From NCBI GenBank assembly GCA_019192455.1, contig JAHCML010000003.1, positions 683,201 to 747,200 of the forward strand: DNA of 64,000 bases, read 5' to 3'. Position numbers and translations under genes: made by a program. Under the pieces are notes generated by a model. It ran no database searches and had not been told where the DNA came from. It was given only the letters and a program-made list of their open reading frames with translations. Positions 2,410 to 28,169 of the stretch are shown here, piece by piece (position 1 is the first letter of the stretch; each line of letters begins with the position of its first letter). The stretch comes from Alphaproteobacteria bacterium SS10 (GTDB lineage Bacteria > Pseudomonadota > Alphaproteobacteria > TMED2).

Positions 2410-2523
2410 GGGCCAGGGCTCAGCATTGTTGCCAGATTAATTGGATGGCCCCGCTTTACCCTGCTGATCATCGAACGGCTAGGCGTTTTGGAGCGATTAG
2501 CCGGATTGTGATGGCCCAGTGCC

Positions 2524-4490: not shown

Positions 4491-4503
4491 TGATTGGAGC
4501 CCC

Positions 4504-5424
4504 ATGGAGTATTTTCTGCAGCAGCTGGTGAACGGGCTAACGCTCGGCGCCATCTTTGGGCTGATCGCCATTGGCTACACGATGGTCTACGGCATCATTG
4601 GCATGATCAACTTCGCCCATGGCGATATCTACATGGTCGGTGCCTTCATCGCGTTGATGACCTTCCTGCTTCTTGGCTTCGGTGATGTGCCGGTTGTCTC
4701 TATCCCTGTTGCGATTGTGTTGGTGTTGGCGGTCGCCATGGCCTTCACATCGATCTATGGATGGGCCGTTGAGAGGGTGGCGTACAAGCCCCTGCGCGGA
4801 TCGTTCCGCCTGGCACCGCTGATCTCTGCGCTGGGCATGTCGATCTTCCTGCAGAACTACGTCCAGATCTCACAAGGGGCCCGGGTTAAGCCACTGCCGC
4901 CGGTGCTTGAGGGCGGTATCACCCTGGTTAAGGGCGACACCTTCGATGTGACGATCAGCTACCAGCAGATCTTAATCATCGTCCTGACCATCGTTCTGAT
5001 GGCGGCCTTTACCTTCCTGATCCAGAAGACATCGCTCGGTCGTCAGCAGCGCTCTTGTGAGCAGGATCAGAAGATGGCCGCTCTGCTCGGCGTGAATGTG
5101 AACCGCACGATCTCCATGACCTTCCTGATGGGCGCCGCACTGGCCGCCGTCGCGGGCACCATGGCCGTGATGTATTACGGCGTGATCCACTTCTTCATCG
5201 GCTTCCTAGTCGGGATTAAGGCGTTTACCGCCGCTGTGCTTGGCGGCATTGGTTCGCTACCTGGTGCCATGCTTGGTGGTCTGTTGATCGGGCTGATTGA
5301 GGCGTTTTGGTCTGGCTATTTCGATGTGGAATACAAGGATGTGGCCGCGTTCTCGATCCTGATCCTGGTACTGATCTTCCGCCCGAGTGGCCTGCTCGGC
5401 AAACCAGAAGTCGAGAAAGTCTGA
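4504..5424 (+). CDS. livH: Branched-chain amino acid ABC transporter permease LivH
   Basis: A 306-residue inner-membrane permease of the LivH type, hydrophobic throughout with about eight membrane segments. The N-terminal pattern VNGLTLGAIFGLIAIGYTMV followed by MINFAHGD is the family hallmark, and the C-terminal half carries the cytoplasmic loop that contacts the ATPases (GLRQQRSCEQDQKMAALLGV-type region, about residues 175-200). I start it at 4504 because GGAG lies 5 bases upstream and because translation from an earlier in-frame start (4414) would add 30 non-conserved residues. It pairs with LivM to form the channel for leucine, isoleucine, valine or related substrates. Confidence 0.93.
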   Translation: MEYFLQQLVNGLTLGAIFGLIAIGYTMVYGIIGMINFAHGDIYMVGAFIALMTFLLLGFGDVPVVSIPVAIVLVLAVAMAFTSIYGWAVERVAYKPLRGSFRLAPLISALGMSIFLQNYVQISQGARVKPLPPVLEGGITLVKGDTFDVTISYQQILIIVLTIVLMAAFTFLIQKTSLGRQQRSCEQDQKMAALLGVNVNRTISMTFLMGAALAAVAGTMAVMYYGVIHFFIGFLVGIKAFTAAVLGGIGSLPGAMLGGLLIGLIEAFWSGYFDVEYKDVAAFSILILVLIFRPSGLLGKPEVEKV

Positions 5425-5428
5425 TCAC

Positions 5429-7051: not shown

Positions 7052-7938
7052 CCCAGTATTCGAGCCAGCATCCCCGCCTTTTGAGCGTTCAACACCTAAC
7101 CATGCGCTTTGGTGGTTTGATCGCGGTTGATGATGTGTCCTTCGACGCCCATGACCGGGAGATCACCGCCGTGATCGGACCAAACGGTGCGGGCAAGACG
7201 ACGCTGTTCAACTGCCTAACCGGTTTCTACAAGCCCAGCACAGGCATGCTGCAGCTAACCGCGCCCGATAGCCCGGAATACCTTCTGGAGCGGATGGAAG
7301 GCCACGACATCGCGGCCAAGGCACGGGTTGCCCGTACCTTCCAGAATATCCGCCTATTTGACCGGATGAGCGTGCTTGAGAACCTATTGGTGGCCCAGCA
7401 CAACAAGCTGATGAGGGCCTCTGGCTTCAGCTTTGCTGGCCTGTTTGGCCTGCCAGGCTATAAGGCAGCGGAGAAGCAGGCGATTGAGCAGGCCAAATAC
7501 TGGCTAGATAAAACCGGCCTCACCGACCGCGCGGATTGGGAGGCGGGGAACCTTCCCTATGGTGATCAGCGCCGCCTTGAGATTGCCCGGGCCATGTGCA
7601 CTGATCCATGCCTGCTTTGCCTTGATGAACCGGCGGCTGGCCTCAACCCGCGCGAGAGTGCGGATTTGAACGAGCTGCTGACCTTCATCCGTGATGAGCA
7701 CAAGATCGGCGTCCTCTTGATCGAACACGATATGAGCGTGGTGATGAAGATCTCTGACCACATCATCGTGCTGGATTACGGCCGCAAAATCTCTGATGGC
7801 CTGCCTGAGGCGGTGCGCAACGACCCAGCCGTTATCCGCGCCTATCTGGGTGAGGAAGAGGATGAGGAGTTGCCGCCGGAAATCGCGGCCGATGTAAGCA
7901 AGGGCAGCGATAGCAATGGGGAGCAGCCAAATGTCTGA
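7048..7938 (+). CDS. livG: Branched-chain amino acid ABC transporter ATPase LivG
   Basis: A 296-residue ABC ATPase with Walker A GPNGAGKT at residues 44-51, a Q-loop near VARTFQNIRLF, an ABC signature LPYGDQRR (about 168-175; LSYGQ in most LivG), Walker B LCLDEPAAGLNP and the switch His in LIEHDM. The LivG-specific RTFQNIRLF is present. The C-terminal BCA_ABC_TP-type region continues into an acidic tail rich in Glu and Asp. The start codon overlaps the livM stop. It forms the nucleotide-binding pair with LivF on the cytoplasmic face of LivHM. Confidence 0.93.
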   Translation: MTQYSSQHPRLLSVQHLTMRFGGLIAVDDVSFDAHDREITAVIGPNGAGKTTLFNCLTGFYKPSTGMLQLTAPDSPEYLLERMEGHDIAAKARVARTFQNIRLFDRMSVLENLLVAQHNKLMRASGFSFAGLFGLPGYKAAEKQAIEQAKYWLDKTGLTDRADWEAGNLPYGDQRRLEIARAMCTDPCLLCLDEPAAGLNPRESADLNELLTFIRDEHKIGVLLIEHDMSVVMKISDHIIVLDYGRKISDGLPEAVRNDPAVIRAYLGEEEDEELPPEIAADVSKGSDSNGEQPNV

Positions 7939-8656
7939 GGCCCCCATGCTTGAAGTTCGCAATGTCCACACCTTCTACGGCGCGATTGAAGCCCTAAAGG
8001 GCGTCTCGCTTGAGGTGAATAAGGGCGAGATCGCAACCCTGATCGGTGCCAATGGTGCCGGTAAATCAACCCTTCTGATGACCCTCTGCGGTAGCCCACG
8101 GGCCCGTGAAGGGGAGATCATCTTTGAAGGGCGCGACATCGCCTCCATGCCAACCCATGAAATTGTGCGCCTCGGCATCGCCCAATCACCTGAGGGGCGC
8201 CGGGTGTTCCCGCGCATGACGGTGATGGAAAACTTGCAGATGGGCACCCTCGTCACCGATGGGAGCCATTTTGACCGCGACCTAAGCCGCGTGTTTGAGC
8301 TGTTCCCACGCCTGAAAGAGCGGAAGAACCAGCGCGGCGGCACCCTGTCTGGTGGTGAGCAGCAGATGCTGGCCATTGGCCGCGCCCTGATGAGCCGCCC
8401 GCGTTTGCTACTGTTGGATGAGCCATCACTCGGCCTGGCCCCAATGATCGTGAAGCAGATTTTTGAGGTGCTGAAAGAGATCAACGAGCAGGACGGCATG
8501 ACCGTCTTCCTGGTCGAACAAAACGCCTATCACGCGCTTAAGCTGGCCCATCGTGGCTATGTGATGGTAACGGGCGATATCACCATGAGTGGCAGCGGTG
8601 CCGAGCTCCTCGCTAATGAGGAAGTGCGCGCGGCCTATCTCGAAGGTGGGCATTAA
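7931..8656 (+). CDS. livF: Branched-chain amino acid ABC transporter ATPase LivF
   Basis: A 241-residue ABC ATPase: Walker A GANGAGKS at residues 39-46, signature LSGGEQQML, Walker B LLLLDEPSLGLAP and the switch region FLVEQNA. FYGAIEALKGVSLEV and SPEGRRVFPRMTV are LivF hallmarks. I start at 7931, where GGGGAG sits about 7 bases upstream, rather than at the in-frame ATG at 7916. The gene overlaps the end of livG by 8 bases, a normal arrangement for this operon. It pairs with LivG. Confidence 0.93.
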   Translation: MSEAPMLEVRNVHTFYGAIEALKGVSLEVNKGEIATLIGANGAGKSTLLMTLCGSPRAREGEIIFEGRDIASMPTHEIVRLGIAQSPEGRRVFPRMTVMENLQMGTLVTDGSHFDRDLSRVFELFPRLKERKNQRGGTLSGGEQQMLAIGRALMSRPRLLLLDEPSLGLAPMIVKQIFEVLKEINEQDGMTVFLVEQNAYHALKLAHRGYVMVTGDITMSGSGAELLANEEVRAAYLEGGH

Positions 8657-8668
8657 GGAGTAGGGGAT

Positions 8669-9010
8669 ATGACAGAACTTCTCGGCATACCGCTGCTCGG
8701 TTTCGTTATCGTCACGCTGTTCCTGTTTGGCTTTTGTGCCTTCATGACCGGGCAGGCGCTCGCCAATGGTTGGAACCGCGCTTGGAAGCTTGTGCCCTAT
8801 GGCGCGTTGTTGGCTTGCGGTGACCGGTTCCTCGGCTTCGCCCTGGCTGGTGGTGATCTGAATTCGATCAGCGGGTTCGTCATCTCCTGGCTTGTCTTGA
8901 CCGGGATCAGCCTCGCGGCATTCCGCTTTACCCAGGCCCGCAAGATGGTGTCCCAATACCCATGGCTTTATGAGCCTGCGGGCCCGTTTGGCTGGCGTTC
9001 AAAGGCCTAA
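8669..9010 (+). CDS. Small membrane protein of the liv operon (DUF6867-like)
   Basis: A 113-residue protein with three predicted membrane segments (about residues 7-29, 42-60 and 65-86) and a C-terminal tail ending in an aromatic, Pro-rich stretch (YPWLYEPAGPFGW). A good ribosome binding site (AAGGAG) precedes it, and only 12 bases separate it from livF. It resembles the small DUF6867-type proteins found next to liv genes in alphaproteobacteria; I am recalling this family and have not checked it. Location in the operon suggests an accessory role in assembly or regulation of the transporter. No enzymatic motif is visible. Confidence 0.75.
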   Translation: MTELLGIPLLGFVIVTLFLFGFCAFMTGQALANGWNRAWKLVPYGALLACGDRFLGFALAGGDLNSISGFVISWLVLTGISLAAFRFTQARKMVSQYPWLYEPAGPFGWRSKA

Positions 9011-9270
9011 ACTGCCTTGTAAAGTGCGCCATTCGGTCGGTTTGTTTAAACACATCTTGCGGCTGGCCACGGTCATGGTAATGTCGCGTGCCAAGCGGTT
9101 TTCGCAAGCCTGCAATGTCCGAACGACAGGGGTTGTGAGACCGAACAACCGTGATCGCTGGATACCTCTCTCCAAACCGGGTTTCACCCGATTTAACCAG
9201 TGTTTGCGGCCGTGAGAGAAGGAGGCGGGCCATGCAATCTCGCATCGATCCCGGCTCCCCGAACAACTCC

Positions 9271-9277
9271 AAAGGAG
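9271..9277 (+). promoter_or_regulatory. Strong ribosome binding site of the binding-protein gene
   Basis: AAAGGAG, 10 bases before the ATG at 9288. It is stronger than the sites of the permease and ATPase genes, which fits the high level needed for a periplasmic binding protein. The 260 bases between it and the previous gene hold no credible ORF and may contain a separate promoter. Confidence 0.6.
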
Positions 9278-9287
9278 TCTACCAAGC

Positions 9288-10394
9288 ATGACTTTAACCC
9301 GTTTTGCCGTTGCGGCATCCGCGCTCGCCATTGGTTTTAGCGCCGCCGTTGCAAAGGCTGAAATCGTCATTGCCACCGCTGGTCCAATGACCGGCCAATA
9401 CGCTTCATTCGGCGAGCAAATGCGCCAAGGCGCTGAGAAAGCCGTCGCTGACATCAACGCTGCTGGCGGTATCCTCGGCCAACAGGTGGTGTTGAAAGTT
9501 GGCGATGATGCCTGTGACCCACGTCAGGCTGTGTCCGTCGCGAACCAGTTCGTGAATGACGGCGTTGTCTTCGTTGCTGGTCACTTCTGCTCTGGCTCTT
9601 CGATCCCAGCTTCCAAGGTCTACACCGAGGAAGACATTCTGCAGATCTCACCAGCTTCCACCAACCCGAAGCTGACCGATGAGGGCGGCGACAACGTGTT
9701 CCGCGTTTGCGGTCGCGATGACCAACAAGGCGCCATCGCTGGTTCCTTCATCAACGCCACCTATGCCGGTAAGAACGTTGCGATCGTCCACGACCGCACC
9801 GCTTACGGTCAGGGCCTGGCTGAGGAAACCAAGAAGGCACTGAACGCCCTTGGCATGACCGAAGCAATGTTCGAGAGCTACACCCCGGGTGAGAGTGACT
9901 ACTCTGCCCTGGTGACCAAGCTTAACGCTGCTGATATCGATGTTCTCTATGTCGGTGGTTACCACACCGAAGCTGGCCTGATGGTTCGTCAGATGCGCGG
10001 CCAAGGCATGGACACGCAGCTGATCTCTGGCGATGCGCTGGTGACCGATGAGTACTGGTCCATTACCGGTGACGCTGGTGAAGGTACCCTTATGACCTTC
10101 GGTCCAGACCCACGTAACTTCGATGAAGCCGCTAAGGTCGTTAAAGAGATGCGTGCCGCTGGCGCTGAGCCAGAGGGTTACACCCTTTACACCTATGCTG
10201 CGATCCAAGCTTTCGCTGACGCTGCAGAGGCTGCCGGTTCAACCGACACCGCTGCTGTCATCGGCGCCCTGCGCGATGGTGAGTTCGAAACCGTTATCGG
10301 TGAGCTGACCTTCGACGATAAAGGCGACATCGAGCAGCCAGCATACGTCTTCTATGAGTGGAAAGACGGCACCTATGCTGAGGTTGCTAACTAA
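9288..10394 (+). CDS. livJ: Periplasmic branched-chain amino acid binding protein
   Basis: A 368-residue LivJ/LivK-type substrate-binding protein (Peripla_BP_6). A Sec signal peptide covers residues 1-24 and ends AKA before EIVIATAGP. The family patterns GPMTGQYASFGEQMRQGAE, INAAGGILGQ, DDACDPRQAV and ISPASTNP are all present, and two Cys (in DDACDP and HFCSGS) match the usual disulfide pair. The protein captures the ligand in the periplasm and delivers it to LivHMGF. It is the last gene of the operon and is followed by a strong terminator. The exact ligand (branched-chain amino acids, amides or other) cannot be decided from sequence. Confidence 0.92.
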   Translation: MTLTRFAVAASALAIGFSAAVAKAEIVIATAGPMTGQYASFGEQMRQGAEKAVADINAAGGILGQQVVLKVGDDACDPRQAVSVANQFVNDGVVFVAGHFCSGSSIPASKVYTEEDILQISPASTNPKLTDEGGDNVFRVCGRDDQQGAIAGSFINATYAGKNVAIVHDRTAYGQGLAEETKKALNALGMTEAMFESYTPGESDYSALVTKLNAADIDVLYVGGYHTEAGLMVRQMRGQGMDTQLISGDALVTDEYWSITGDAGEGTLMTFGPDPRNFDEAAKVVKEMRAAGAEPEGYTLYTYAAIQAFADAAEAAGSTDTAAVIGALRDGEFETVIGELTFDDKGDIEQPAYVFYEWKDGTYAEVAN

Positions 10395-13475: not shown

Positions 13476-13510
13476 AGGGCGCGGGCCGGTTAGGTGCTGG
13501 CGCCTTTTTT
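13476..13510 (+). terminator. Possible terminator after the TadG-like gene
   Basis: AGGGCGC (13476-13482) can pair with GCGCCTT (13500-13506, one G-U pair) across a 17-base loop, followed by TTTT. It overlaps the last codons of the convergent minus-strand gene. The loop is long, so confidence is moderate. Confidence 0.4.
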
Positions 13511-14101
13511 CGCTGGCTTACCCGCTGGTTTCTTGCTGCGGGTGGCAACTTTGCGCCCGGTTTTGGCGCCTGAGGCGAAGTGATCCTTCGGGATCTCAAC
13601 CGGCCACCATTGATCCCGTGAATTCTGGAACTCCTTGAGGCCACCAAGGCGTCGGTTCCGGATTTGCCACGCCCTGAAGCTAGAGCGGAACGAGGCCGTC
13701 AAAAGGACAGAGAGTGGCCCAAGGCCAAGCACAGCAATGGCAACATCGACGGTGCTTGCTGCGGTTATCAGTAGGTAAATCAGGTAGAGAGCAGCCAGGG
13801 CAGCGATAACCAGAAACAGAATGGCGCCACCACGTTGCCGCTGATAGGCGCTATACAAATCGTCGGGCCCCAAGTTTTGGCGGTTGATTGCCTCTTCAAA
13901 GGTTTCGGTTCGGGCCTTCTGATTACCCTCGACCAGGGCCTCGAACATGTTCTTCGTCATGCCCGCGGTGTCGCTGATCTCCTTTACCGGCAGGAAGGTA
14001 CGTTGGACCCAGCCGCCAAGACCGCCTTTATCCTTCTTCCGCTTCTTCCAGCGTCCGGCCTTTGGCTCTTCGCTCTCAGTTTTATTGCTCTGGTCTGTCA
14101 T
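13490..14101 (-). CDS. IcmV/TraX-like type IVB secretion membrane protein
   Basis: A 203-residue inner-membrane protein. A basic N-terminus (KKRKKDKGG) precedes ETFEEAINRQNLGPDDL (residues 66-82), then two membrane helices (about 92-113 and 117-137), then SFRAWQIRNRRLGGLKEF (about 141-158) and a Lys/Ala-rich tail. This succession, ETFE-Q/E-A...R..L...DL, paired helices, then an F..W/Q-I-R/K-R-LG segment, is how I remember Legionella IcmV (TraX in IncI plasmids), though the present protein is about 50 residues longer. IcmV lies beside icmW and dotA in Legionella, as here. The assignment is from remembered patterns, not an alignment; an unrelated two-helix membrane protein is the alternative. 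Confidence 0.5.
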   Translation of the reverse strand: MTDQSNKTESEEPKAGRWKKRKKDKGGLGGWVQRTFLPVKEISDTAGMTKNMFEALVEGNQKARTETFEEAINRQNLGPDDLYSAYQRQRGGAILFLVIAALAALYLIYLLITAASTVDVAIAVLGLGPLSVLLTASFRSSFRAWQIRNRRLGGLKEFQNSRDQWWPVEIPKDHFASGAKTGRKVATRSKKPAGKPAKKGAST

Positions 14102-14289: not shown

Positions 14290-15495
14290 TTAGAAGTCCA
14301 CCGGCGCGATGGCGCTATCGTTGGTCTTATCAACGAAGAAGGTATTGGTTTCTGCCGCTTGGATGCCGGCGATCAGGCCAGCTTGCATCTGTTGAACCTC
14401 GAAACGCTGCCAACGCAGGAACATGGTCGTTGCGCGGATCGCGGCAATCTGTTGCCAGACAGAGGCGGAATCACCAAGCGCTTGGGTCAGGGTGAACCAG
14501 CGCGGGTTCGTCGCCCGGTAGCTGGCCGCAAAACGAAGCATTTCAAAGAAGCTGCTGCCTTCCGCGCCAGGTGAGCGCTCGCTCAAGTAATCCGGCACAC
14601 CATCGGCGAGGCCGCTGGTAAGGGCGCGCATCCGCTCCGCCCAGGCATTGGTTTCAGCGCTATCGGTCTCTGCCCGGATGCCGGCCATGTATTGGCAGGT
14701 CTGGAACACGAGGGCCATCCGCGCGGTATAGGTTTCACGGTGATGGGCCCGCTGATAACGCTCTGGCGTCATAACCGTGCTCAGCACCTGTGGTGGTGCG
14801 CTGCCAACAACAGAGCGACAGAAGTCGATGGAGGCATCGCGGAAGCGTTCGGTGACAACCGAGTAACCCACAAGGGTTTCGGCGCGGGAATCTGCATCCT
14901 TGAGGCCTTCCTCTGCCACGGTACAGCCAGTGATTTCAGCGAGGCGGTCGCCGCAATACTCATCCTCCGTGCGCTGGTTCTGCCATTGCGCATTGGCGGA
15001 GCGAGTACTGTTGGACGTGTCACGCGTTAGACCACGAAGCCATTCGACATTCTCTTCCAGAATTGCCGCCTGGTGGGTCATCTGATCGGCATCAATCACA
15101 CCAGACACCGAGGCCACGGTGGCTTGGAAGCTGTGGTCAGGGTTTTCTTGCTGGCGGATATTCTGACGATAGGCGAGGGCCTGACGCCGGTTATTGGCAT
15201 AGGCGCTGAGGTGGTGGCTGCCCATCTCAGTATCGGCCTGGGTGTTACCGCTAATCTGCGCGTTTAGGGCAGAGAAGTTGAACGCCAGGAGAATGTAGGT
15301 CCAGGCAATCCAGGCCTGGGTGTAAACGGTGATCGTGGTGCCGGTCAGACGGACCATAGCAGCACTGGCAAAACATGGGCATTTGGCGCTTCGTGCTTCC
15401 CGCATAGCGAGGGTGGCGCCGGCAGCAATGCCGATGCACACAACAATGACCAGCATTGACTGCCAAACTCTGGATCGTCTGGTTTGTATCTGCAT
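14290..15495 (-). CDS. Exported protein, paralogue pair A, member 1
   Basis: A 401-residue protein of unknown function with an N-terminal signal or anchor (about residues 12-35, after a basic start) followed at once by KCPC. It is a paralogue of the gene just upstream (15573-16727). Shared points in order are: C-x-C at the mature N-terminus; F.FSALNAQIS against F.GAINASLS; YCGDRLAEITGC against YCGLRSEMLGRC; FEMLRFAASYRATNPRW against YEVMALQNEFRFKSPDW; and WQRFEVQQ against WKRFELDQ. A membrane-like stretch (WIAWTYILLAFNF) occurs near residues 62-74. It is last in the icmW operon. The position matches icmX/traW of other type IVB systems, but I see no sequence proof of that identity. Confidence 0.75.
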   Translation of the reverse strand: MQIQTRRSRVWQSMLVIVVCIGIAAGATLAMREARSAKCPCFASAAMVRLTGTTITVYTQAWIAWTYILLAFNFSALNAQISGNTQADTEMGSHHLSAYANNRRQALAYRQNIRQQENPDHSFQATVASVSGVIDADQMTHQAAILEENVEWLRGLTRDTSNSTRSANAQWQNQRTEDEYCGDRLAEITGCTVAEEGLKDADSRAETLVGYSVVTERFRDASIDFCRSVVGSAPPQVLSTVMTPERYQRAHHRETYTARMALVFQTCQYMAGIRAETDSAETNAWAERMRALTSGLADGVPDYLSERSPGAEGSSFFEMLRFAASYRATNPRWFTLTQALGDSASVWQQIAAIRATTMFLRWQRFEVQQMQAGLIAGIQAAETNTFFVDKTNDSAIAPVDF

Positions 15496-15572: not shown

Positions 15573-16727
15573 TTACTCTGTCCGGACGTAGGATTCTTCA
15601 GCCTTGGTCGCCAGGATTACGGCCAGGTTGCTGGCAATCCGCTGATCCAGCTCAAACCGCTTCCACTCGGTATAGAGGTTGGTGGCTTCCATCACGGCGA
15701 GTTCTTTGAGAATTGGCAGTTCCGATGGGGTGCCGGCCATGATGCCGTTAACCCAGTCGGGTGACTTGAAGCGGAACTCATTCTGCAGCGCCATCACCTC
15801 GTACAGGCTTTGGCTATCAGCGTGCGGGTTACCGCCGTTGATATTTGGGTCGCTTGAGCCGGTGACGTGCTCACGCAGGTTGTCGGCCCAGACGGCATCC
15901 TCTTCGCCCACCTCTTTCTTAAGGCCGGTGAGGTACTCAAAGGTCTCCATCATGGTGTCGACCCGTGCGTCACGGGTTACCCGGTCACGCAGCTTCACTT
16001 GACCCAACGGGGTTGCATAATCCTGCCCAACCGGTGGTGGTGGGGTAGGGCCGGCAACGATCTGGGCGAAATCATTCGCCGCCCGGGCAAGCTGGTCATC
16101 CAGCGTATCATACTGCATCAGCAGCGGCTTGATATGTGCGTCCCGCAGCTCTGGGCGGTCAGACACCTCTGATTCAGCAAAGGTACAGCGGCCCAGCATC
16201 TCAGAACGGAGGCCGCAATACCGGCTCTCCATCTCCTCAAGCGTCGCCGTGGCATTTGCCGCGGCCGTGCCTGAAGTGGTGGTGGTCAGGTTACGCAGAT
16301 GCATGTCGTTGGCTTCACTGAGCTGACGACGAACCTGCAAGGAACCCAAAGATTTTGGACCTGTGCGGGTCGAGGCATCGTAACCGGAGACACAAGCATC
16401 AACACCGGAAGTGAAGTCAGTCACCACCTGGTGGCGTGCTTCCATCCGGGCGAGTTGGGTATACTCACTATTCTGATAGCTGGTCACTTCAGCCATGGTT
16501 GATTGTTGTGCAGACAGGCTGGCATTGATCGCACCAAATGACTGGCTGATCATCAGGGTTAGCATGCCAAAGCCGGCACTAATTGCGCCGGTGGATGTGG
16601 CAACCGTGCTCGCATAAGCCGGTGGCAAGCAACCGCAAGCCTCGGCATCGGCGGGCATGTAGCTGATTGCCACCCCGGCAAACAGCGAAGTAGCCAACAG
16701 TGCTGACTTAAACTTCTTACCCATCAT
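15573..16727 (-). CDS. Exported protein, paralogue pair A, member 2
   Basis: A 384-residue protein with a clear Sec signal (KKFKSALLATSLFAGVAISYMPADAEA) and then ACGC, giving a C-x-C at the mature N-terminus. Further Cys lie in DACVSG and in YCGLRSEMLGRC. A weak hydrophobic stretch (GFGMLTLMISQSFGAI) follows the signal. It is a paralogue of the next gene in the operon (14290-15495). I start at 16727 because GGGGG lies 8 bases upstream; a GTG one codon earlier is also possible. It probably acts in the periplasm or at the cell surface as part of the type IVB machinery. No known domain recognised. Confidence 0.75.
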   Translation of the reverse strand: MMGKKFKSALLATSLFAGVAISYMPADAEACGCLPPAYASTVATSTGAISAGFGMLTLMISQSFGAINASLSAQQSTMAEVTSYQNSEYTQLARMEARHQVVTDFTSGVDACVSGYDASTRTGPKSLGSLQVRRQLSEANDMHLRNLTTTTSGTAAANATATLEEMESRYCGLRSEMLGRCTFAESEVSDRPELRDAHIKPLLMQYDTLDDQLARAANDFAQIVAGPTPPPPVGQDYATPLGQVKLRDRVTRDARVDTMMETFEYLTGLKKEVGEEDAVWADNLREHVTGSSDPNINGGNPHADSQSLYEVMALQNEFRFKSPDWVNGIMAGTPSELPILKELAVMEATNLYTEWKRFELDQRIASNLAVILATKAEESYVRTE

Positions 16728-16893
16728 CACATCTACCCCCTCGTCACACGGCCCAATGCCGCATTGATCGATTACATCCTTTGATCCGCGCTCTATCGTT
16801 CGAGCGGTAGGGGCGAGCCCCTAAACGGACCAACTAAGTCAAAGCCAAACCGAACAAGCTGGTTCGGCATCCATTGCCTATCGCTTCAAACCG

Positions 16894-17436
16894 CTATCGA
16901 AGGATTATCGACTCCGGCCCAATAGGCGAAACCAAGTCCAGATTGATGTTACCACCCGGCACACCATTGCCGCGGGTCACACCGATCTCAAAGCTGCCAC
17001 CAATCCAATCGGTATAGGTGTTACCAAAGATGGTGATCGGAATTTCTGGTAGCTGGAATTGCGCGCTCAGCTGGCTGATGATCGCGTCCCATTTCGACGT
17101 GATCTGTTGGCACAGCCGGTCAATGATCCGGGTCAGTAGGGCGCTGAAGTCAGGCCAGGTCAGAATCAGTCCAATATTCATCGCCAGGCTCATAAGCTGA
17201 TCCAGGCAATCAACGATTTGCTTCACGTGACCTGGGTTCGGCAGGGCATCAATCGCGGATTGAACAAACTCATCCTTCGTGTGCTCAACCAACCGTTCCA
17301 CATAGTCACAGATATCCGGAATACAGGGGTCAAAATCCGCAGCCTCGGCCTGCTGCGTTGGCGTCATGGCGAGTAGGAAGACTGCAAACAGCCCCCCAAT
17401 CATCAGCCGCCAGCTCGATCGCATCATATCGGCCAT
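16894..17436 (-). CDS. Exported small protein, paralogue pair B, member 1
   Basis: A 180-residue protein with a signal peptide (to about residue 32, ending AEAAD) and a strong GAGGGG site before its ATG. The mature protein begins DFDPCIPDICDY, and the core motif PGHVKQIVDCLDQLM (about residues 67-81) is shared almost exactly with the upstream paralogue (17565-18146). The C-terminal part (PEIPITIFGNTYTDWIGGS, then EIGVTRG, then SPIGPESIIL) also matches it. Cys of DPC, VDCL and LCQQ are conserved between the two. It looks like a helical then beta-rich periplasmic or surface protein. Function unknown; operon membership with icmW points to secretion. Confidence 0.75.
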   Translation of the reverse strand: MADMMRSSWRLMIGGLFAVFLLAMTPTQQAEAADFDPCIPDICDYVERLVEHTKDEFVQSAIDALPNPGHVKQIVDCLDQLMSLAMNIGLILTWPDFSALLTRIIDRLCQQITSKWDAIISQLSAQFQLPEIPITIFGNTYTDWIGGSFEIGVTRGNGVPGGNINLDLVSPIGPESIILR

Positions 17437-17525
17437 GTTAATCCCCTCAACTTATGCCCGCAAATCGGGCGCTTTATCGGGTTAAACCCAAAACCATGCC
17501 CATGGAGGGCTCAGTATTACTGTGA

Positions 17526-17555
17526 CAAGCCGCCGACGAAGCTGCCGGCGGCTTG
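17526..17555 (-). other. Intercistronic perfect hairpin
   Basis: A perfect 10-bp stem, CAAGCCGCCG (17526-17535) with CGGCGGCTTG (17546-17555), and a 10-base loop, 9 bases past the stop codon of the 193-residue gene. No U-tract follows on the minus strand. In the middle of an operon this suggests mRNA stabilisation or partial attenuation between paralogue B2 and the later genes. Confidence 0.55.
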
Positions 17556-17564
17556 CTAAATCAC

Positions 17565-18146
17565 TTATTGCAGCGGGTTCAGGATCACCCGGTCCCGACC
17601 AATTGGTGAATTCAGTTGGATATCGATCTGACCCATCGGTGCCCCGCGGGTTAAGCCGCCGGATAGTGAGCCGCCAAACAGCGTCACATTCTCGCCGAGG
17701 ATATCTACTGTAATATCTGGGAACTGAATATTCGCCTGAATCTGGCTCACAACCTCATCCACCGCGCGGGTCGCTGCCTGGCAGGCCCGGTTAATCAGGT
17801 CGGATAGGATGTTCGACAGCAGTGCCTGCCAATTCAGATTGAAGATCGCACTCACCGTGATCCCGATATTCATCAGGTCAGCCAAGCAATCCACCACCTG
17901 CTTCACGTGACCCGGCTCAATGAAGGAGAGCGGAATCATCTCAATATATTTTGCCACCGCGTTGGCAATCCGCTCATCGAGTGAGCGCCGACGGTCGGGC
18001 GGGCAGGGGTCATTGGCGTAGTTATCACCAAAGCCCATAACGAACGAACCCTCGAGGCTGGCGCTAAAATCCGCCTTCGCATCGGAAGGCGCCATTACCG
18101 TCAGTCCCAGGGCCATTACCATCGCAATGAACAGGCCGCGTAACAT
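17565..18146 (-). CDS. Exported small protein, paralogue pair B, member 2
   Basis: A 193-residue protein with a signal peptide (MLRGLFIAMVMALGLTVMAP, cleavage near AKA-D). Its core PGHVKQVVDCLADLM and its end (PDITVDILGENVTLFGGS, GLTRGAP, SPIGRDRVIL) match the 180-residue neighbour. Conserved Cys occur in NDPC, VDCL and RACQ. I start at 18146 because GAGGGGG lies 7 bases upstream and this leaves a 4-base gap to the icmW stop; an in-frame ATG at 18170 would overlap icmW. Function unknown. The two B genes look like a tandem duplication, now quite diverged. Confidence 0.75.
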   Translation of the reverse strand: MLRGLFIAMVMALGLTVMAPSDAKADFSASLEGSFVMGFGDNYANDPCPPDRRRSLDERIANAVAKYIEMIPLSFIEPGHVKQVVDCLADLMNIGITVSAIFNLNWQALLSNILSDLINRACQAATRAVDEVVSQIQANIQFPDITVDILGENVTLFGGSLSGGLTRGAPMGQIDIQLNSPIGRDRVILNPLQ

Positions 18147-18150
18147 GATC

Positions 18151-18618
18151 TTACCCCCTCTTAATCGCATCCTGGATCAGCGCTAACCGCTCAGGTGCAA
18201 AAACCTTATACATCAAATCAAGCCGCGCCAGGTGGCGCAGTGAATCACGAACAACCCTACCGGCCTCAACGGCCGCATCGTCGCCCCCATTGGGCGATAG
18301 CAGATTGGCGGCAAGCGCGGCGCCATCGGCCCGCTCTTCTGCCAACCAAGATAATAAGCGTAATCGAGTAGACGCGCGCATGTAAGCAAAAGAAACGCGT
18401 GCGGCATCCACCAGCGACTGTGTCGCCGCCAGCTGGGCTAAGTCACCCTCTGGGATGGATTCCAGTGTTTCACCGAGTTTTTCGACAGCATCATTGATTT
18501 GGCCGTCGCTCTTCGGCGGCCAGGGCTCTGACTCTTCAATATGGGCGAGGGTGAGCGTCATATTCTCACCCTTATCTTCCCAATATGCCTGGATCGCTTC
18601 CGCGTCCAATTTCGGCAT
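18151..18618 (-). CDS. icmW: IcmW-like type IVB secretion adaptor
   Basis: A 155-residue acidic cytoplasmic protein that matches Legionella IcmW (151 residues) along its whole length as I remember that sequence. Agreeing parts are the start P.L..EA...YW.......T..HIEESEPW (IcmW: FMESVEDW), the helix AVEKLGETLESIPEGDLAQLA (AMKQLGQELDDI...DLGLLA), TRLRLLSWL (RGLRLLQAI), and the closing helix pair with LRHLARLDLMYK.....LALIQDA (LRLLSRVF..YRLKLVLRA). IcmW binds IcmS, and the pair loads effectors onto the DotL C-terminus. It heads a five-gene operon with a strong GAGGGGG site. Divergence from dotA repeats Legionella gene order. Confidence 0.72.
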   Translation of the reverse strand: MPKLDAEAIQAYWEDKGENMTLTLAHIEESEPWPPKSDGQINDAVEKLGETLESIPEGDLAQLAATQSLVDAARVSFAYMRASTRLRLLSWLAEERADGAALAANLLSPNGGDDAAVEAGRVVRDSLRHLARLDLMYKVFAPERLALIQDAIKRG

Positions 18619-19082: not shown

Positions 19083-19583
19083 GTGAGCGCAACTGCTGCA
19101 CCGCTATCTGGGGGGATGGCACAATCAACAGATAGGACGCCACGTCCGGGTGATGTGGCCGCCATGCAATCGGGGGTCGATGATGCTTTCGGTAAGCCGA
19201 CTGACCTAGGTGCTATCTTTGCTGGTGGTAAACCACAGCTTCGCCTCGCTGGCATCGATGGCCAGAACGAAGCGCCAGGCCAAGCGCCCGCTGCTAACCA
19301 AGGTCCTCACCACGGGCCAGAGCAAGATTCAGAAGCTGGCCACGTTGCCGGTATGATTCTCACCACGATGCTGCCAGGTGCAGCCGCTATCGGCGCCAAG
19401 GTGATGCACGCTCAGGAATTCTACGAGAAAGAAATGAAGTCAGACGGTGCGCACTCTCATATGGGGCGCAAGGCTGACGGCACCCTCACCGTGAACAACG
19501 ATGAGGTGATCGATATGGGCAGAACTGCTCGCGACAATGCCCTGAAGGCCAAGATGTCTGGGCCGATGGGAATGAGAAGGTAA
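19083..19583 (+). CDS. Hypothetical protein upstream of dotA
   Basis: A 166-residue protein with no recognised family. It starts at a GTG with AGGGGA about 6 bases upstream. The first 90 residues are Gly/Pro/Gln/Ala-rich and look disordered (APGQAPAANQGPHHGPEQD). A short hydrophobic patch (VAGMILTTMLPGAAAIGAKVM, about residues 88-108) could be a weak membrane segment. The end (GTLTVNNDEVIDMGRTARDNALKAKM) looks like a small folded unit. It lies between the divergent control region and dotA, in the same direction as dotA. It could be a small machinery component, a regulator or a secreted substrate; nothing in the sequence decides this. Confidence 0.6.
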   Translation: MSATAAPLSGGMAQSTDRTPRPGDVAAMQSGVDDAFGKPTDLGAIFAGGKPQLRLAGIDGQNEAPGQAPAANQGPHHGPEQDSEAGHVAGMILTTMLPGAAAIGAKVMHAQEFYEKEMKSDGAHSHMGRKADGTLTVNNDEVIDMGRTARDNALKAKMSGPMGMRR

Positions 19584-19616: not shown

Positions 19617-19759
19617 TCACTGAGTTTAATGATGGTGATATGGCCAGCATGCTGGCTTTAGACTTTTTGAACTGAGTTTTTTTGGCAGTGGCCGTTCTGT
19701 TCTTATGAGGTGGGGGATTACCTCAGCAGATCTGGTTAGCCAGTTTGGGAGTGGGGGTT

Positions 19760-22654
19760 ATGAATTCTAACCTTTGGATGTTTGTCTGGATGGTTGCGGT
19801 GGCTTTGGTCGCCGTGGTTGTGCCAGGAGTTGCTTGGGCCAGTGGTGCGACGCCACCAGAGGCTGGTTCCGTTGAGGCAATCTGCCAAGGCGGGCTGTTC
19901 TGTGTGACGGCCCATGACGTGTCGGCAGGCTGGATTGCCGCGGCGTTCCCTGATTTGGTCCAATTGGCGACCGATGAGGCGCCAACCGGAACGCCGGTTG
20001 AGATCACGAGCCCGTCCACCACTCTCGCGGCTGCCTTGCAGGTTCTGAACTCTGCAGCCCTGGCGGTTGGTTCCTTGATCCTCACCTATAAGCTGTTGGC
20101 CGGTATCGTGCAGACAGCGAATGACGGTGAAGTGCTTGGTAAGCGCTGGTCGACCCTGTGGGGTCCAGTGCGTGTCGCCATTTCTGCGTCACTCATCGTG
20201 CCGACAGCATCAGGCTATTGCCTGGCGCAGGCGCTCGTGGTCGCGATTGCCCTGTCTGGTGTTGGCTTGGCCAACCGGATCTGGGAGGTCACGGTTGAGC
20301 AGATGATGACTGCCGATGGCATGATTGGCTCTCAAGTGCACCCACCGCACGAGCGAATCACCAAGCAGATCTTTGCGAATAACGTCTGTCTGCACCTGAT
20401 GAACGGCCTATGGCTGTATCACAAAGGTGATAATCCCCGTTCTGCGATTGAAGACGACGCCGCTAGTGCCGGTGGTTGGTCAGTGCACCCAAGCTGGGCT
20501 GGCTGGAACTGGACCGGTGCGGGCAACATCTATGCTGGCTTCCCTGGTGGTGGCCGTGACTTTGGTGGCGTTCAGTTTGCCAATGGTTCGCTGTTCTACC
20601 GTCGCGCTGACTGGCGTGGTGATGGTGATGGCTGGTTCGATCCAAGTGCAACCTACATGGGTTGGACGGTTGTCGATGTTGGCTGGTGGGAAGAGGTGAA
20701 ATCCTTCTTCGGTGCCTCTAAGCGTCCAGACAGCTGTGGTCGGGTTGATGTTCGGGTTCCAGAAGTTGATGCCAGCACTGGCAGCATCTGGACGTCGGTC
20801 ACCAATTTCTTCCGCGATGAAGAAGAAGTGACCGCAGAAGCGTCAGCTGCAGCAGCGCTGTCTGGCCTGGCCTACCGTGTTGCTCTGGTTCATACCGAGC
20901 AGATGGAAACCCTGGCTAAGCGGTTGGATAGAAACGCATGGCAGTTGGTTCAAACCGAACTGATCCAGCATTTAGACAACCCTGATGCTGCGTATCTGCG
21001 GACGCTTGAGCGACCACCAGAGGTGCATGGTGCAGAGATTGCCCAAGCGGCAATTGACTACCGCACAGCTGTGACCAGTCAGGTCAATAATGAGCTGCGC
21101 ACCTTCTTCACCAGTGAGCCATTGGCGCAGCAATATATCCGCGCCGCTAAGGATGGTGGTTGGGCAGTTGCGGGTGAATGGTTCCTGCAGATCATGAAGA
21201 TGAACGCCATGGTTCATCGCATGGTGAGTGCAACGCCGGTAACGACGGCTCAACCTGAGCATGATACGCTTTGCGACAAGATCAATTGCTCCGACGACAA
21301 CGTTGAGGCGATTGTGAATCGTGGCATCGACATCATGCGGAACTTCCATGATGACTCAGTGGCAAGCCACATGCGGGCGATGGCGAGTACGCCAGACCCG
21401 GATCCACAACTTCAGGCTCGCCTGCGGTCGATGTACCGGAGTGTTGGTTCCATCGGCAGCAACCAAATCATGGGTGGCAGCGCTGAAGAGCGGGCAATCC
21501 AGGTGGTGAGCAATCAGATCATGGCAATCGCCGCGGTCTACGCCACTGACATTGGTGCTGGTGTCCTGGCTGGTGACATGGGCTTCTCCGATGTCCTCGG
21601 TGAGGGTGTTGAAGGCCTGTTCATGGGTGGCTTGGTTGCCCTAACCGCTGACGGCTCCGCTGGTGCCGCTGTCGGTTCTGCGACTGCCGCTGCTGGTGAG
21701 GGTTTTGTTAGCCTGACCAATCTGCGGATGGATACCGGTAACAGTAACCCAATCGCTGCTGTGATCACCCTGGGCCGTGCGCTCTGGGCGACCGGCCTTG
21801 GTATCCTGTTCGCGGTTGATGACCGTCAGTTCACGCCGGCAGACGCCGCGACTGTGATGGCTCTAACCTCCATGCAGCAGGGTTCTGGCATCGTTGCCGG
21901 TGTCGGTTCTGAGCTACTGAGCGGTATGAGTGATCGCCTCGCCGGTATCATGGCGTGGATCGGTCGGATCATGCTTCTGCCGGGCTTCCTGCTTGGTTAC
22001 CTGTTCCCATATCTGCCTTGGCTGCTATGGGTTGGTGGCCTGGTCGGTTGGTTCATCCTGGTGATGGAGGCTGTGATCGCCGCACCATTGTGGGCTCTGG
22101 CTCACATGCGGATGGACGGTGAGGGCATCATGGGCCCAGCTGGTAACCAAGGTTACATGCTGGCTCTGGCGTTGCTCCTACGGCCTGCGTTGATGCTGAT
22201 TGGTCTGATCAGTGGCATGGTGTTGATCTATATCTTCGCACCATTCCTCGGGGTTAGCCTGATGGCGGTCAGTGAGTTGAACCGCGGTGCTGGTTCGGCC
22301 CTGGATCTGATGTCAGTGCTGATGTCGATCGGTCTCCTTGCCTTCGTGATGGTCACGACCTGCTACAAGGCCTTCGGGATGATCAACCAGGTGCCTGATC
22401 GGGTGCTTCGTTGGATCGGCTCCGGTGGCAGCAGTGATGGCCGCGAGGATGAGTTCCGCTCCGGTGCCTTCGCTCTGGTCAACGCGGCCTCCCTGACCGC
22501 TGGTGTCAGTGCCGCAGCCGGTGTCGGTGAAGAGCAAGGCAACAACGGTGCTGGGTCCGGTGAACAAGCCGGCGCCGATGGTGGCCGAGGCGGCTCCGGT
22601 CAGCGGATGTCCTCACGGGCAAGCCGGGCCAATGAGAACCTGCCAAGGCCGTAA
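19760..22654 (+). CDS. dotA: Type IVB secretion inner-membrane protein DotA
   Basis: A 964-residue polytopic membrane protein of the DotA/TraY family, about the size of Legionella DotA (1048). A signal-like N-terminus (MNSNLWMFVWMVAVALVAVV) precedes a periplasmic part. The family core follows: a helix with LTYKLLAGIVQTANDGEVLGKRW (split over about residues 115-135), then WGPVRVAISASLIVPTASGYCLAQ, the most conserved stretch. A long periplasmic loop separates the helices at about 90-180 from a C-terminal bundle of five to six helices (about 640-880), ending in a Gly-rich cytoplasmic tail. I start at ATG 19760 with GGGAG 8 bases upstream. DotA sits in the inner membrane of the Dot/Icm apparatus; its mechanistic role is not settled. 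Confidence 0.85.
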   Translation: MNSNLWMFVWMVAVALVAVVVPGVAWASGATPPEAGSVEAICQGGLFCVTAHDVSAGWIAAAFPDLVQLATDEAPTGTPVEITSPSTTLAAALQVLNSAALAVGSLILTYKLLAGIVQTANDGEVLGKRWSTLWGPVRVAISASLIVPTASGYCLAQALVVAIALSGVGLANRIWEVTVEQMMTADGMIGSQVHPPHERITKQIFANNVCLHLMNGLWLYHKGDNPRSAIEDDAASAGGWSVHPSWAGWNWTGAGNIYAGFPGGGRDFGGVQFANGSLFYRRADWRGDGDGWFDPSATYMGWTVVDVGWWEEVKSFFGASKRPDSCGRVDVRVPEVDASTGSIWTSVTNFFRDEEEVTAEASAAAALSGLAYRVALVHTEQMETLAKRLDRNAWQLVQTELIQHLDNPDAAYLRTLERPPEVHGAEIAQAAIDYRTAVTSQVNNELRTFFTSEPLAQQYIRAAKDGGWAVAGEWFLQIMKMNAMVHRMVSATPVTTAQPEHDTLCDKINCSDDNVEAIVNRGIDIMRNFHDDSVASHMRAMASTPDPDPQLQARLRSMYRSVGSIGSNQIMGGSAEERAIQVVSNQIMAIAAVYATDIGAGVLAGDMGFSDVLGEGVEGLFMGGLVALTADGSAGAAVGSATAAAGEGFVSLTNLRMDTGNSNPIAAVITLGRALWATGLGILFAVDDRQFTPADAATVMALTSMQQGSGIVAGVGSELLSGMSDRLAGIMAWIGRIMLLPGFLLGYLFPYLPWLLWVGGLVGWFILVMEAVIAAPLWALAHMRMDGEGIMGPAGNQGYMLALALLLRPALMLIGLISGMVLIYIFAPFLGVSLMAVSELNRGAGSALDLMSVLMSIGLLAFVMVTTCYKAFGMINQVPDRVLRWIGSGGSSDGREDEFRSGAFALVNAASLTAGVSAAAGVGEEQGNNGAGSGEQAGADGGRGGSGQRMSSRASRANENLPRP

Positions 22655-23588: not shown

Positions 23589-25985
23589 TTATGCTGTTGC
23601 CAGTTCTGCTGACTGCTCTTCACGCAGGGCTTTGATGAGGGCCTCAATCGTCTCGGGCACGTCATCACGCTTCGGCAGCACTGGCATATCGTCGCTTGGA
23701 TAATCGAGAGCTGCGGTCGCGGCATCCTCGATGGCGTCCAGGGCTTCCTGGGTTGCGATATCGTCGTCGAGCCAGGCTTCCTGAACCGCCCGAATACCGT
23801 CGATGACACCTGCTGCCTCGCTGCCCCAAATCTTGGCGCAGAGATCTTCGAAATCGTCGGCGCCAGCGGTGCCAGTGCTCGGCATAACCGGCATCTGTGC
23901 CACCGGTGCGCTGGCCTGCTTCGGTGCAGGCATGAAGGCAACTGGTTGGTCCGAACGCTCGCCCGCATCCTTCTTGCTGCCATCTTCGATTGGCGCAATC
24001 TCTTGGTCCGGCACTTCCATGGAGAAGGCGGTCGCACCAATGGCGGTTGTTGAGGCATCAAACAGGCTAACACCACGGTTCTTTGACGCTTCCATCGCCT
24101 GAACCGCCATGGCCAGCTCTTCCTCGAGCTTCGGCGCTTCCTGGGCGGCATTCATGGCCGTCCATTGCTCATCGCGCAGGCGCTCAAGCACGGGTTCCAC
24201 ATTACCGGCGCCAGTCATGGCTGGGTCTGGGAAGCGAACCGCGATAAAGCGGTTGAACCGTAGGCGGTTCGCGCTCTTCGGATTGGCGTAATACATCTTC
24301 ACCCGGGTCATCTTACCGCCGAAGAAGGTGTGGGATTCACCACTCTCTTGCAGGCGCAGATCGATGAACTCTGAGCGACGACGCTCACGAACCGAGGCGT
24401 TACGGATGTCGTTATAGTTGTTGAAGGTGGCGTTCGGATCCATGGTGAAGCCAGACACCTCAGCGGCGTAGAACGTGCCAGCGGTGGCATCGAACAGCTT
24501 GTTGGTGTGCTCCGGATCCTCTAGCTTCATGAAGGTCTTGATGTTGCAGTTAGCGATGATGGACTCAGCCTCTTTTTCAGAGCGCTTCTTCATCGCGCTA
24601 ACGTCCTGAGCGGCGAAGACCATCGAGAAACCGAGTGAGCGCGCCTGCGCTGCCATCACGGCCATGCCCGGCACGGTGTAGTAACCAACCTCATCCAGGA
24701 TCGATAGGAAGGGTGAGGAGGCGTTGGTTGGCTTGGTTGAGATGACGTTTGACCAGTCACCCTCAAGCTTGGCCCCCAGGGTGGCGGACATCATGCCCTT
24801 TAGGGAGGCAACAACGATCTTACCGATGTTTGCCAATTCATCCTCGGACTTCTCCAAGGCGGGCAGCAGGACCAGCAGGATCCGGCGGTTCACAACCACA
24901 TCGTACACATCGATATCGCCCAATTCGTGGTCGAAGATGTGGCCATAGGTACCGGATAGCGAGGTCAGGATCCTGGTGAACTGCATCTGCAGGTAACCAT
25001 GCTGATCGTTGGCGGTGGCGGCCTGTGGGCGCCCGGCGCGGGCCTCGTTCCAATCGAAGCCAGGCAAGCTATCCAGATAGTTCTTAAGCTGTGAGCGGGT
25101 CTTGGCGGGCAGCTCATAGGTGCCGTGCTTGTCGAGGTAGAGGTCGACAATTTTAGGCAGGTTGAGGAAGTCGCCCAGCGCTTCAATGTTCAAAAGCAGC
25201 TTGCCACGGTCACGTAGCTCACAAACCGCCATCATGATTGCGGTGAGGAGCGAGATCGCACGGCCTTTCCACATGTCACCTTCTTTACCGGGGTCATCCA
25301 TCAAGGAGACCAGCATCTCGGTAAGTGACCCTGCAGAGCCGCGAGAGAACGGGTTGAACGTATTACTCTCACCGCCGCCATCGCTGTTACCGGTCATGAA
25401 GTTCAGAATTAGAACGTCATCATCGCGGCCAAAGCGGCGGGCGAGGGAGTAAACCTTACCCCACAGGCTGGTATCACCCTTACCATCGCAGTACAGGAAG
25501 CCGGAGCCCCAGCTGAGTGCGTTGGAGGACATGGAGACCAGCGTCTCGGTCTTACCGGAACCGGTGGTGCCAAGGATTAGGAAGTGGGTACGGGCGTCAC
25601 TGTTGGAAAACCACAGCTCATCCCCGCCATTATCCAAATCATTGCCATAGAACAGAATGCCATCGGCGGTCTGGGCCTTACCCGTACCGGGATGCCGATC
25701 ATTGGGATCGGGCAGCATTGTTTGCGCAGGCAGCTTATAGGGCAGCTTCGCTGGCAGTTTGATCAGGTAGTAGAAATAGCCAGCGCCGATCATCATCGCG
25801 ATGTCAGACAGGGCCGGGAAGATCACACAGACGGCGATCAGGCTGGTCATGCCGATCGCGGCTAGGCTTGGGTCTTTGGCCCCTTCGAAGAACTGTTGGC
25901 CAAGGGTTCGGGTATCACGAAGGAAGGCAAGCGGTGAGTACTGAAACCGCTTTGTATCGACATACGGATTATTAGCCTTAGCCAT
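23589..25985 (-). CDS. dotL: Type IV coupling protein DotL/IcmO
   Basis: A 798-residue VirD4-class ATPase of the DotL (IcmO/TrbC) branch, against 783 in Legionella. Two membrane helices lie at about residues 42-75. Walker A is GTTGSGKT at 139-146, and Walker B is in LSILDEVGYY at about 425-434, followed by the QARSLGFSMVFAAQD motif. After the ATPase core (to about 590) comes a Glu/Ala-rich tail of about 200 residues. In Legionella that tail binds DotN, IcmS and IcmW, and since IcmS- and IcmW-like genes are present here it probably does the same. It selects substrates and passes them to the transporter at the inner membrane. It is the last gene of icmS - dotM - 233 aa - dotL. Confidence 0.92.
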   Translation of the reverse strand: MAKANNPYVDTKRFQYSPLAFLRDTRTLGQQFFEGAKDPSLAAIGMTSLIAVCVIFPALSDIAMMIGAGYFYYLIKLPAKLPYKLPAQTMLPDPNDRHPGTGKAQTADGILFYGNDLDNGGDELWFSNSDARTHFLILGTTGSGKTETLVSMSSNALSWGSGFLYCDGKGDTSLWGKVYSLARRFGRDDDVLILNFMTGNSDGGGESNTFNPFSRGSAGSLTEMLVSLMDDPGKEGDMWKGRAISLLTAIMMAVCELRDRGKLLLNIEALGDFLNLPKIVDLYLDKHGTYELPAKTRSQLKNYLDSLPGFDWNEARAGRPQAATANDQHGYLQMQFTRILTSLSGTYGHIFDHELGDIDVYDVVVNRRILLVLLPALEKSEDELANIGKIVVASLKGMMSATLGAKLEGDWSNVISTKPTNASSPFLSILDEVGYYTVPGMAVMAAQARSLGFSMVFAAQDVSAMKKRSEKEAESIIANCNIKTFMKLEDPEHTNKLFDATAGTFYAAEVSGFTMDPNATFNNYNDIRNASVRERRRSEFIDLRLQESGESHTFFGGKMTRVKMYYANPKSANRLRFNRFIAVRFPDPAMTGAGNVEPVLERLRDEQWTAMNAAQEAPKLEEELAMAVQAMEASKNRGVSLFDASTTAIGATAFSMEVPDQEIAPIEDGSKKDAGERSDQPVAFMPAPKQASAPVAQMPVMPSTGTAGADDFEDLCAKIWGSEAAGVIDGIRAVQEAWLDDDIATQEALDAIEDAATAALDYPSDDMPVLPKRDDVPETIEALIKALREEQSAELATA

Positions 25986-27044: not shown

Positions 27045-28169
27045 TTAAGCGTGATTTGTGGCGATAAACTCTTCGAGACCGAAGACTGCCTCATCCACAT
27101 CGGGTTCCGGCATGGGGCGTCGGGTGACGATCTCCGCACGCCAATGGGCAATCGCGCCGGCGGACTCAATCAGCGCGGTTGGGCGGCCAACGGCGTTCAA
27201 AACGTACCACATGGCCCGATCTTCAAGCTTCAACCACAGGAAGTCAGATGATGCCATCACACCGCCATTGATCCGTGACCAGTCGAGAATGGCCGCCATG
27301 GAGGTCTCAACCCAAGCATGCTGACGCGCAACTTTGGTTGGTTCGGCCATCATCTTCATATCGCGAAGGACCTTGTTCACCATCTTGGTCAGCTTGGCAT
27401 CCTTGGACAGCGCCTTCTCAGCAGAGCCGAAATTGGCTGCGCCCCGGGAAAGGCGGCGCAGGATCTCTTCGCAATCATCGCCCTTCTTGTTGCCGCGTAA
27501 GACAAGGGCCGCAACCAAGGCCTGGAGATAGGGTGGGAGCTCAGAAACTGCTGTCCATGGGCGTCGCAGCTGCCTGGATAACGCAGCCCGTGCCGCCTCA
27601 CGATCCGGTGCGCCATCTTCGATCTGGACGCCGTGGCGATCAGCCCATTCCTTCGGGTCTAGCGCCTCAAGCCAGGCGCCTTCCTTGTCGTCGAGCGGGT
27701 TGTTTTTCACGATCGGGCTAATCGCGAACCATTTCTGGCTTTGGTACTTAATTAACCGGCCCAGATCGTAGAACTTCCGCAGCACCGAGTTCGGGTGCTT
27801 GAACATCAGAAACCATGTGAAAAACATGATGATGAAGATGGAAGGCCAGGCGATATAGGGGCCGACATAGCCGGAGATGTTGGCAATATCAGACCATTGG
27901 TACTGTCCTGGTGGTACTGCCATCATGGCCCGCCGATAGGCCTCCATGCTCGCCGCTTCGTCCTGAAGCCCCGGCCAGACAAAGCCGACGAGCCAAAAAA
28001 ACGTGCTGATCAACCACATTTCAATGCTGCGGAGATGTAGGACAGCCGAGTGAATAATGTCCTTGTTGTAGAGATACAGCAGGTAGAGCATGCCGAGGCC
28101 AAAGCCCATCAGCATGACAATGCCCATCAGCGGATCTGATTGATTGTTGTTACCGCCGCCCTGTGCCAT
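27045..28169 (-). CDS. dotM: Type IVB coupling-complex protein DotM/IcmP
   Basis: A 374-residue inner-membrane protein, the length of Legionella DotM (about 376). Three membrane helices (about residues 14-34, 48-66, 108-126) precede a cytoplasmic domain. The C-terminal third carries the family hallmarks: RQHAWVETSMAAILDWSR, GVMASSDFLWLKLEDRAMWY and LNAVGR...LIESAGAIAHW, which are very like the DotM pattern of LASAEFLWLK..DR.LWY.LN.VGR. Basic patches on this domain recruit effectors with acidic Glu-rich signals in Legionella. DotM works with DotL at the inner membrane. The ATG has AGAGG upstream. It is 121 bases downstream of the icmS-like gene. Confidence 0.9.
   Translation of the reverse strand: MAQGGGNNNQSDPLMGIVMLMGFGLGMLYLLYLYNKDIIHSAVLHLRSIEMWLISTFFWLVGFVWPGLQDEAASMEAYRRAMMAVPPGQYQWSDIANISGYVGPYIAWPSIFIIMFFTWFLMFKHPNSVLRKFYDLGRLIKYQSQKWFAISPIVKNNPLDDKEGAWLEALDPKEWADRHGVQIEDGAPDREAARAALSRQLRRPWTAVSELPPYLQALVAALVLRGNKKGDDCEEILRRLSRGAANFGSAEKALSKDAKLTKMVNKVLRDMKMMAEPTKVARQHAWVETSMAAILDWSRINGGVMASSDFLWLKLEDRAMWYVLNAVGRPTALIESAGAIAHWRAEIVTRRPMPEPDVDEAVFGLEEFIATNHA

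Follow-up and report, generated by a model that had tools for sequence, protein, structure and literature searches.

The window, a stretch of 64,000 nucleotides from a contig of Alphaproteobacteria bacterium SS10, carries two adjacent genes on its minus strand for small, exported-looking proteins, here called B1 (17565-18146, 193 aa) and B2 (16894-17436, 180 aa). The start of B1 was taken as the ATG at 18146; a longer frame of 201 aa begins at 18170. The original prediction had described the two as paralogues with a PGHVKQ(I/V)VDCL core, three conserved cysteines and icmW as a neighbour, and all of this was borne out. B1 and B2 are about 38% identical over most of their length, and their local BLOSUM62 score was 245, compared with 30.5 ± 4.6 for shuffled sequences (n=500, maximum 52). 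The motifs PGHVKQ(V/I)VDCL..LM, a C-terminal GGS..G.TRG and SPIG are common to both. B1 has cysteines at positions 48, 87 and 122; B2 has four (38, 43, 77 and 109), three of which align with those of B1. B1 combines a helical core with a predicted beta tail, and both N termini, as read from the sequence, look like signal peptides, with no lipobox seen. Neither protein matched a Pfam or NCBIfam family, and nothing credible was found in PHROGs. The structural model of B1 had a pLDDT of 60.0 and gave no Foldseek match at E <= 0.001, adhesin folds included; profile matches in the PDB to spike, gp120 and others were rejected as chance or low-complexity hits. Directly 3' of the B1 stop lies a perfect 10-bp inverted repeat (17526-17555). 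It lacks a T run and is therefore not a canonical terminator; it could set the ratio of B1 to B2 expression.

The neighbouring icmW gene (18151-18618, minus strand), encoding the type IVB coupling complex adaptor, was identified by PF23130 (59.5 bits, cut-off 27) but stayed under the stricter NCBIfam equivalog cut-off (59.6 vs 100). On the other side of the B genes, also on the minus strand, lie genes for two larger exported-looking proteins, A1 (15573-16730, 385 aa) and its paralogue A2 (14290-15495, 401 aa), and for a TraX-like membrane protein of 203 aa (13490-14101). The last was recognised with a profile of rhizobial homologues (E 1.8e-8), which also ranks ColIb-P9 TraX first (E 5.5e-4). 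With the B genes read as traL and the A genes as traW, as argued below, the operon order is icmW-traL1-traL2-traW1-traW2-traX, divergent from dotA/traY; the TraX-like gene gives it the traW-traX order of IncI1. The VirB6-like dotA/traY is on the plus strand (19745-22654; TIGR04346 307 bits, PDB 9ngy DotA 1.1e-34). Further along, on the minus strand, are a TrbC/DotL-like coupling ATPase (23589-25985; NF041447 406 bits, under the equivalog cut-off of 800) and dotM/icmP (27045-28169; PF23127 156.6 bits, cut-off 27). A 166-aa open reading frame between icmW and dotA (19083-19583) has no family match.

Direct searches with B1 or with a B1-B2 alignment returned only the window itself, whether in 95 related genomes, 84,980 species genomes, viral contigs or plasmids, and B homologues were reached only through the neighbouring A genes. 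A1 matched hypothetical proteins on plasmids of Sinorhizobium, Aminobacter, Roseomonas and Acetobacter, and in all four loci that were read a small exported protein with the cysteine pattern of B was encoded directly upstream of the A homologue. Searches with these upstream proteins yielded 13 and 53 plasmid records and 63 loci from the genome collection. We assembled a neighbourhood set of 80 alphaproteobacterial loci (63 from genomes, 17 from plasmids), with hosts in Acetobacterales, Hyphomicrobiales and others, and with Thalassospira among the plasmids. B stood directly before A in 80 of 80 loci, the retrieved sequence also included DotA in 77 and, upstream, an IcmW-like gene in 66, although the genome scan started from a Roseomonas-type B and the set is therefore not a sample of all T4BSSs. 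IcmW was confirmed by Pfam in the Roseomonas and Thalassospira loci. No locus among the 80 held two B or two A genes. The expectation that the pairs would accompany dotA and icmW elsewhere was thus correct for the families, but not for B as a pair.

The arrangement icmW-B-A-A', divergent from dotA as in the window, was found on MPF_I plasmids of Xanthomonas and Pseudomonas and on a Teredinibacter plasmid. The IcmW proteins of these three gammaproteobacterial plasmids scored 65-88 bits in Pfam, and their B proteins matched the B profile with E values of 5e-10, 1.6e-5 and 1.3e-6. Another alphaproteobacterial assembly contains a very divergent locus (5845-9685) with a single B, a single A and a DotA-like gene, all on one strand.

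Pair A is very probably TraW, judging from profile comparisons. A1 and A2 form a true paralogous pair (local score 281, shuffles 39 ± 6.7), and a window-free A profile recovered both (E 5.6e-25 for A1, 9.3e-13 for A2). ColIb-P9 TraW scored 35 bits against the A profile and reached 96% in global hhalign. The A homologues of Xanthomonas, Pseudomonas and Roseomonas matched NF033888 (conj_TraW) with E values of 1e-8 to 1e-10, under the equivalog cut-off, while the window copies gave no direct match to this family. The A1 model was mostly helical with a pLDDT of 57.4, and a Foldseek search with this low-confidence model returned nothing at E <= 0.001, and no VirB5 or IcmX at that level. Pair A thus differs from TraW, IcmX and VirB5 in its two copies, in homologues that stay below the equivalog cut-off and in having no solved-fold match. 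An icmX neighbourhood was sought in two plasmid T4BSS loci and was not found there. A published nomenclature table puts TraW in line with IcmX and VirB5, and likewise groups TraY with DotA and VirB6 (PMC12624023).

B1 and B2 are almost certainly members of the TraL family, a component of IncI/MPF_I-type (type IVB) T4SSs, to go by profile searches in both directions. The target sets were 379 open reading frames from the window and a second locus of the same genome, and 156 open reading frames for the ColIb-P9 search. A window-free B profile found B2 (E 7.2e-10) and B1 (E 2.2e-7) as the only good matches among the 379, and in ColIb-P9 its best match of 156 was TraL (E 1.3e-5). The full alpha- and gammaproteobacterial B profile also placed TraL first of the 156 (E 1e-8, 28.6 bits). 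The reverse search is the stronger test. A TraL-only profile, made from six enterobacterial TraL proteins of which two are nearly identical, ranked B2 first (E 0.0016) and B1 second (E 0.0024) among the 379 open reading frames, the three gammaproteobacterial B proteins first to third of 274, and alphaproteobacterial plasmid B proteins first of 758. In profile-profile comparison, a match with TraL had a probability of 96% when all B proteins were included and of 93.5% when those of the window were left out, whereas unrelated TraW and IcmW controls gave 0.4-1.8%. A B profile from the window alone matched TraL weakly (hhalign 39.8%), so the link between B and TraL rests on the wider family. Two of the cysteine columns show no variation across 16 of 16 aligned rows; the first cysteine of the family is present too, but its alignment varies and Teredinibacter lacks it. 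The IncI1 protein TraV, encoded in the same place before traW, was considered as a counterpart of B and rejected, as it has no signal peptide and no profile match.

The proteins are short and the B proteins share only about 11-24% identity with ColIb-P9 TraL, which leaves room for the suspicion that a signal peptide and a chance spacing of cysteines produced the match and that B is an unrelated exported protein. We regard this as very improbable: the TraL-only profile put B on top in three independent sets of open reading frames, shuffles of TraL that kept the signal peptide and permuted the mature part only (n=2000) reached at most 9.6 bits as against 28.6, and the aligned core falls outside the signal peptide. 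The idea that B is a new structure exclusive to this type IVB branch, as first proposed, is barely credible. In its favour, a direct search of 84,980 genomes turned up no close relatives and neither Pfam nor NCBIfam gave a match, but the profiles tie B to TraL and to many plasmid B proteins, and the reciprocal searches contradict the idea.

Like TraL of IncI1 (R64/ColIb-P9) and IncM pCTX-M3, B1 and B2 are small, apparently exported proteins of an MPF_I system, with three cysteines in the same order (C25, C63 and C92 in TraL) and a helix-like SCL...P.f....L....C core. Machinery of the TraM/TraN/TraO/TraU/TraY kind is encoded with them: dotA, dotM and a TrbC-like gene in the window, dotC, dotH and a VirB10-like gene in the second locus. 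TraL itself, however, has 115 aa (170 in IncL/M), a short or different tail, a single copy and a position beside traM, in contrast to the 180-193 aa, paired genes and icmW and traW neighbours of B1 and B2. More similar in setting is an unannotated TraL-like protein encoded on MPF_I plasmids of alphaproteobacteria such as Acetobacter, Roseomonas, Komagataeibacter, Sinorhizobium and Methylosinus. Its gene immediately precedes traW and in most cases follows icmW, and the protein has the same three cysteines and a signal peptide, but it is single-copy, and many of these plasmid proteins carry two further cysteines in a Gly-rich tail (QCG...CP.LSFGGGGP) that are absent from the window and from TraL.

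A TraL query alone returned 3332 plasmid records, and with pair A read as TraW this overturns the original claim that the proteins are specific to this type IVB branch. Thousands of common plasmids of the IncI1 and IncL/M groups carry its gene, and we found no function assigned to TraL in the literature. In IncM pCTX-M3, all tra/trb deletions except those of orf35, orf36 and orf46 reduced or abolished transfer (PMC6112013), and TraL of this plasmid is among the proteins whose function the literature leaves unassigned. TraL is not among the entries in the available part of the T4SS nomenclature table (PMC12624023).

Phylogenetic trees support a lineage-specific tandem duplication as the probable origin of each pair in the window, in line with the two duplications proposed earlier. 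B1 was joined to B2 with an SH-aLRT of 99 and A1 to A2 with 97 (99/98 with gammaproteobacterial rows added). Between the two pairs there is no relationship (A1-B1 local score 33, shuffles 32 ± 4.5). The gammaproteobacterial TraW pairs grouped apart from A1/A2, and orthology of A1/A2 with those pairs was rejected by the AU test (p ~1e-4 to 7e-4), so the TraW doublings look independent. TraW would then have doubled at least three times, although the trees have long branches, and gene conversion could leave a similar pattern. The Teredinibacter purpureus plasmid has three tandem TraW-like genes (4057-5190, 5187-6383 and 6383-7534). Doubling of TraL was seen in the window only, all other loci having a single B. 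TraL as such is an old, widely distributed part of the machine; the novelty lies in its two copies here.

The remainder of the machine is encoded 0.8 Mb away on the same contig, where DotH and DotC were identified by Pfam together with a TrbI/VirB10-like protein, and where DotI, a DotO-like protein and others were recognised by reading. This second T4BSS locus also encodes three tandem TraR-like proteins (5921-6328, 6399-6800 and 6868-7269 within the contig stretch 1506001-1526000) of DUF6750, the family of ColIb-P9 TraR and TraQ, which share 98-118 identical residues of about 133. TraR/DUF6750 is placed in the VirB2 family by the literature. Relaxases of the families PF03432, PF08751, PF03389 and PF07514 were absent from the 100%-complete, 16-contig genome; the search covered these four families, a further one with PF01076 being uninformative. 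For this reason, the system in this genome is likely to serve protein secretion rather than conjugation. Dot/Icm-type parts are present in the window in the form of the IcmW adaptor and DotM. IcmW, usually regarded as an adaptor for Dot/Icm effectors, is also encoded on MPF_I plasmids from several genera, so its presence fits secretion and is not decisive.

Where might TraL act? Between icmW and traW in alpha- and gammaproteobacteria, it appears as a widespread type IVB component, and this placement makes the stalk the place to look. According to reviews, DotA and IcmX form a pentameric central protochannel, and TraW and DotA/TraY would take the IcmX and DotA positions in it. In our proposal, TraL would be helical, stabilised by disulfides and located in the periplasm, where its partner on the DotA/TraY stalk would be the VirB5-like TraW/IcmX subunit. 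Taken as a whole, this reading (two TraL copies in a chromosomal, seemingly relaxase-free T4BSS, with a role at the stalk) has a probability of roughly 0.5. Its parts are of different strength. Gene order ties B/TraL to TraW in most systems seen, and to TraM in IncI1. A partnership between TraL and TraW has, in our view, slightly less than an even chance: traL of IncI1 adjoins traM (DotI/VirB8) and not traW, so gene order there does not force it, and the gammaproteobacterial plasmids double TraW without TraL, so a fixed stoichiometry between the two is not required. With TraL and TraW both doubled, the stalk or tip may be a hetero-oligomer and not a homo-oligomer; that B1 and B2 form hetero-oligomers, as originally suggested, can be put forward tentatively, with the odds somewhat against it. 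Unlikely, at the far end of this proposal, is that type IVB machines have in TraL a conserved stalk or tip subunit that has escaped notice, and that two TraL, two TraW and three pilin-like TraR forms together make up a mixed stalk in this system. Such a structure would be unlike the pentameric DotA-IcmX stalk of single subunit types.

As a possible but somewhat unlikely alternative, B/TraL could help to assemble the machine from the periplasm, as a factor or chaperone acting on, for instance, DotI/TraM or the outer-membrane core without being part of the stalk; its doubling would then tune dosage or client choice. The small size, the cysteines and the variable tail would suit such a protein; several related clusters contain disulfide-handling genes, and traL adjoins traM in IncI1 and IncL/M-like plasmids. 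In the 80 alphaproteobacterial loci and the three gammaproteobacterial plasmids, however, B lies beside traW and not traM. Less probable still would be a place for B and A at the tip, exposed on the surface or secreted, with their doubling serving to diversify target recognition, by analogy with Bartonella Trw, in which VirB2- and VirB5-like genes are amplified in tandem. Trw is type IVA, whereas the system here is type IVB with three TraR-like, two TraW-like and two TraL-like proteins. That the three tandem TraR-like copies accompany two TraW and two TraL in one genome, that TraW doubling arose repeatedly and that, according to a review, shortened IcmX occurs outside the cell are all in keeping with a tip function, but Foldseek with the low-confidence model matched no adhesin fold.

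Reading B as TraL gives an orphan component a place, and the window adds a doubled TraL/TraW set in a relaxase-free system. Repeated independent doubling of TraW, set beside a single doubling of TraL, makes the idea of a mixed stalk testable. As a separate observation, on the Pseudomonas plasmid the type IV CRISPR genes csf1 and csf2 (1774-3608) adjoin the T4BSS operon.
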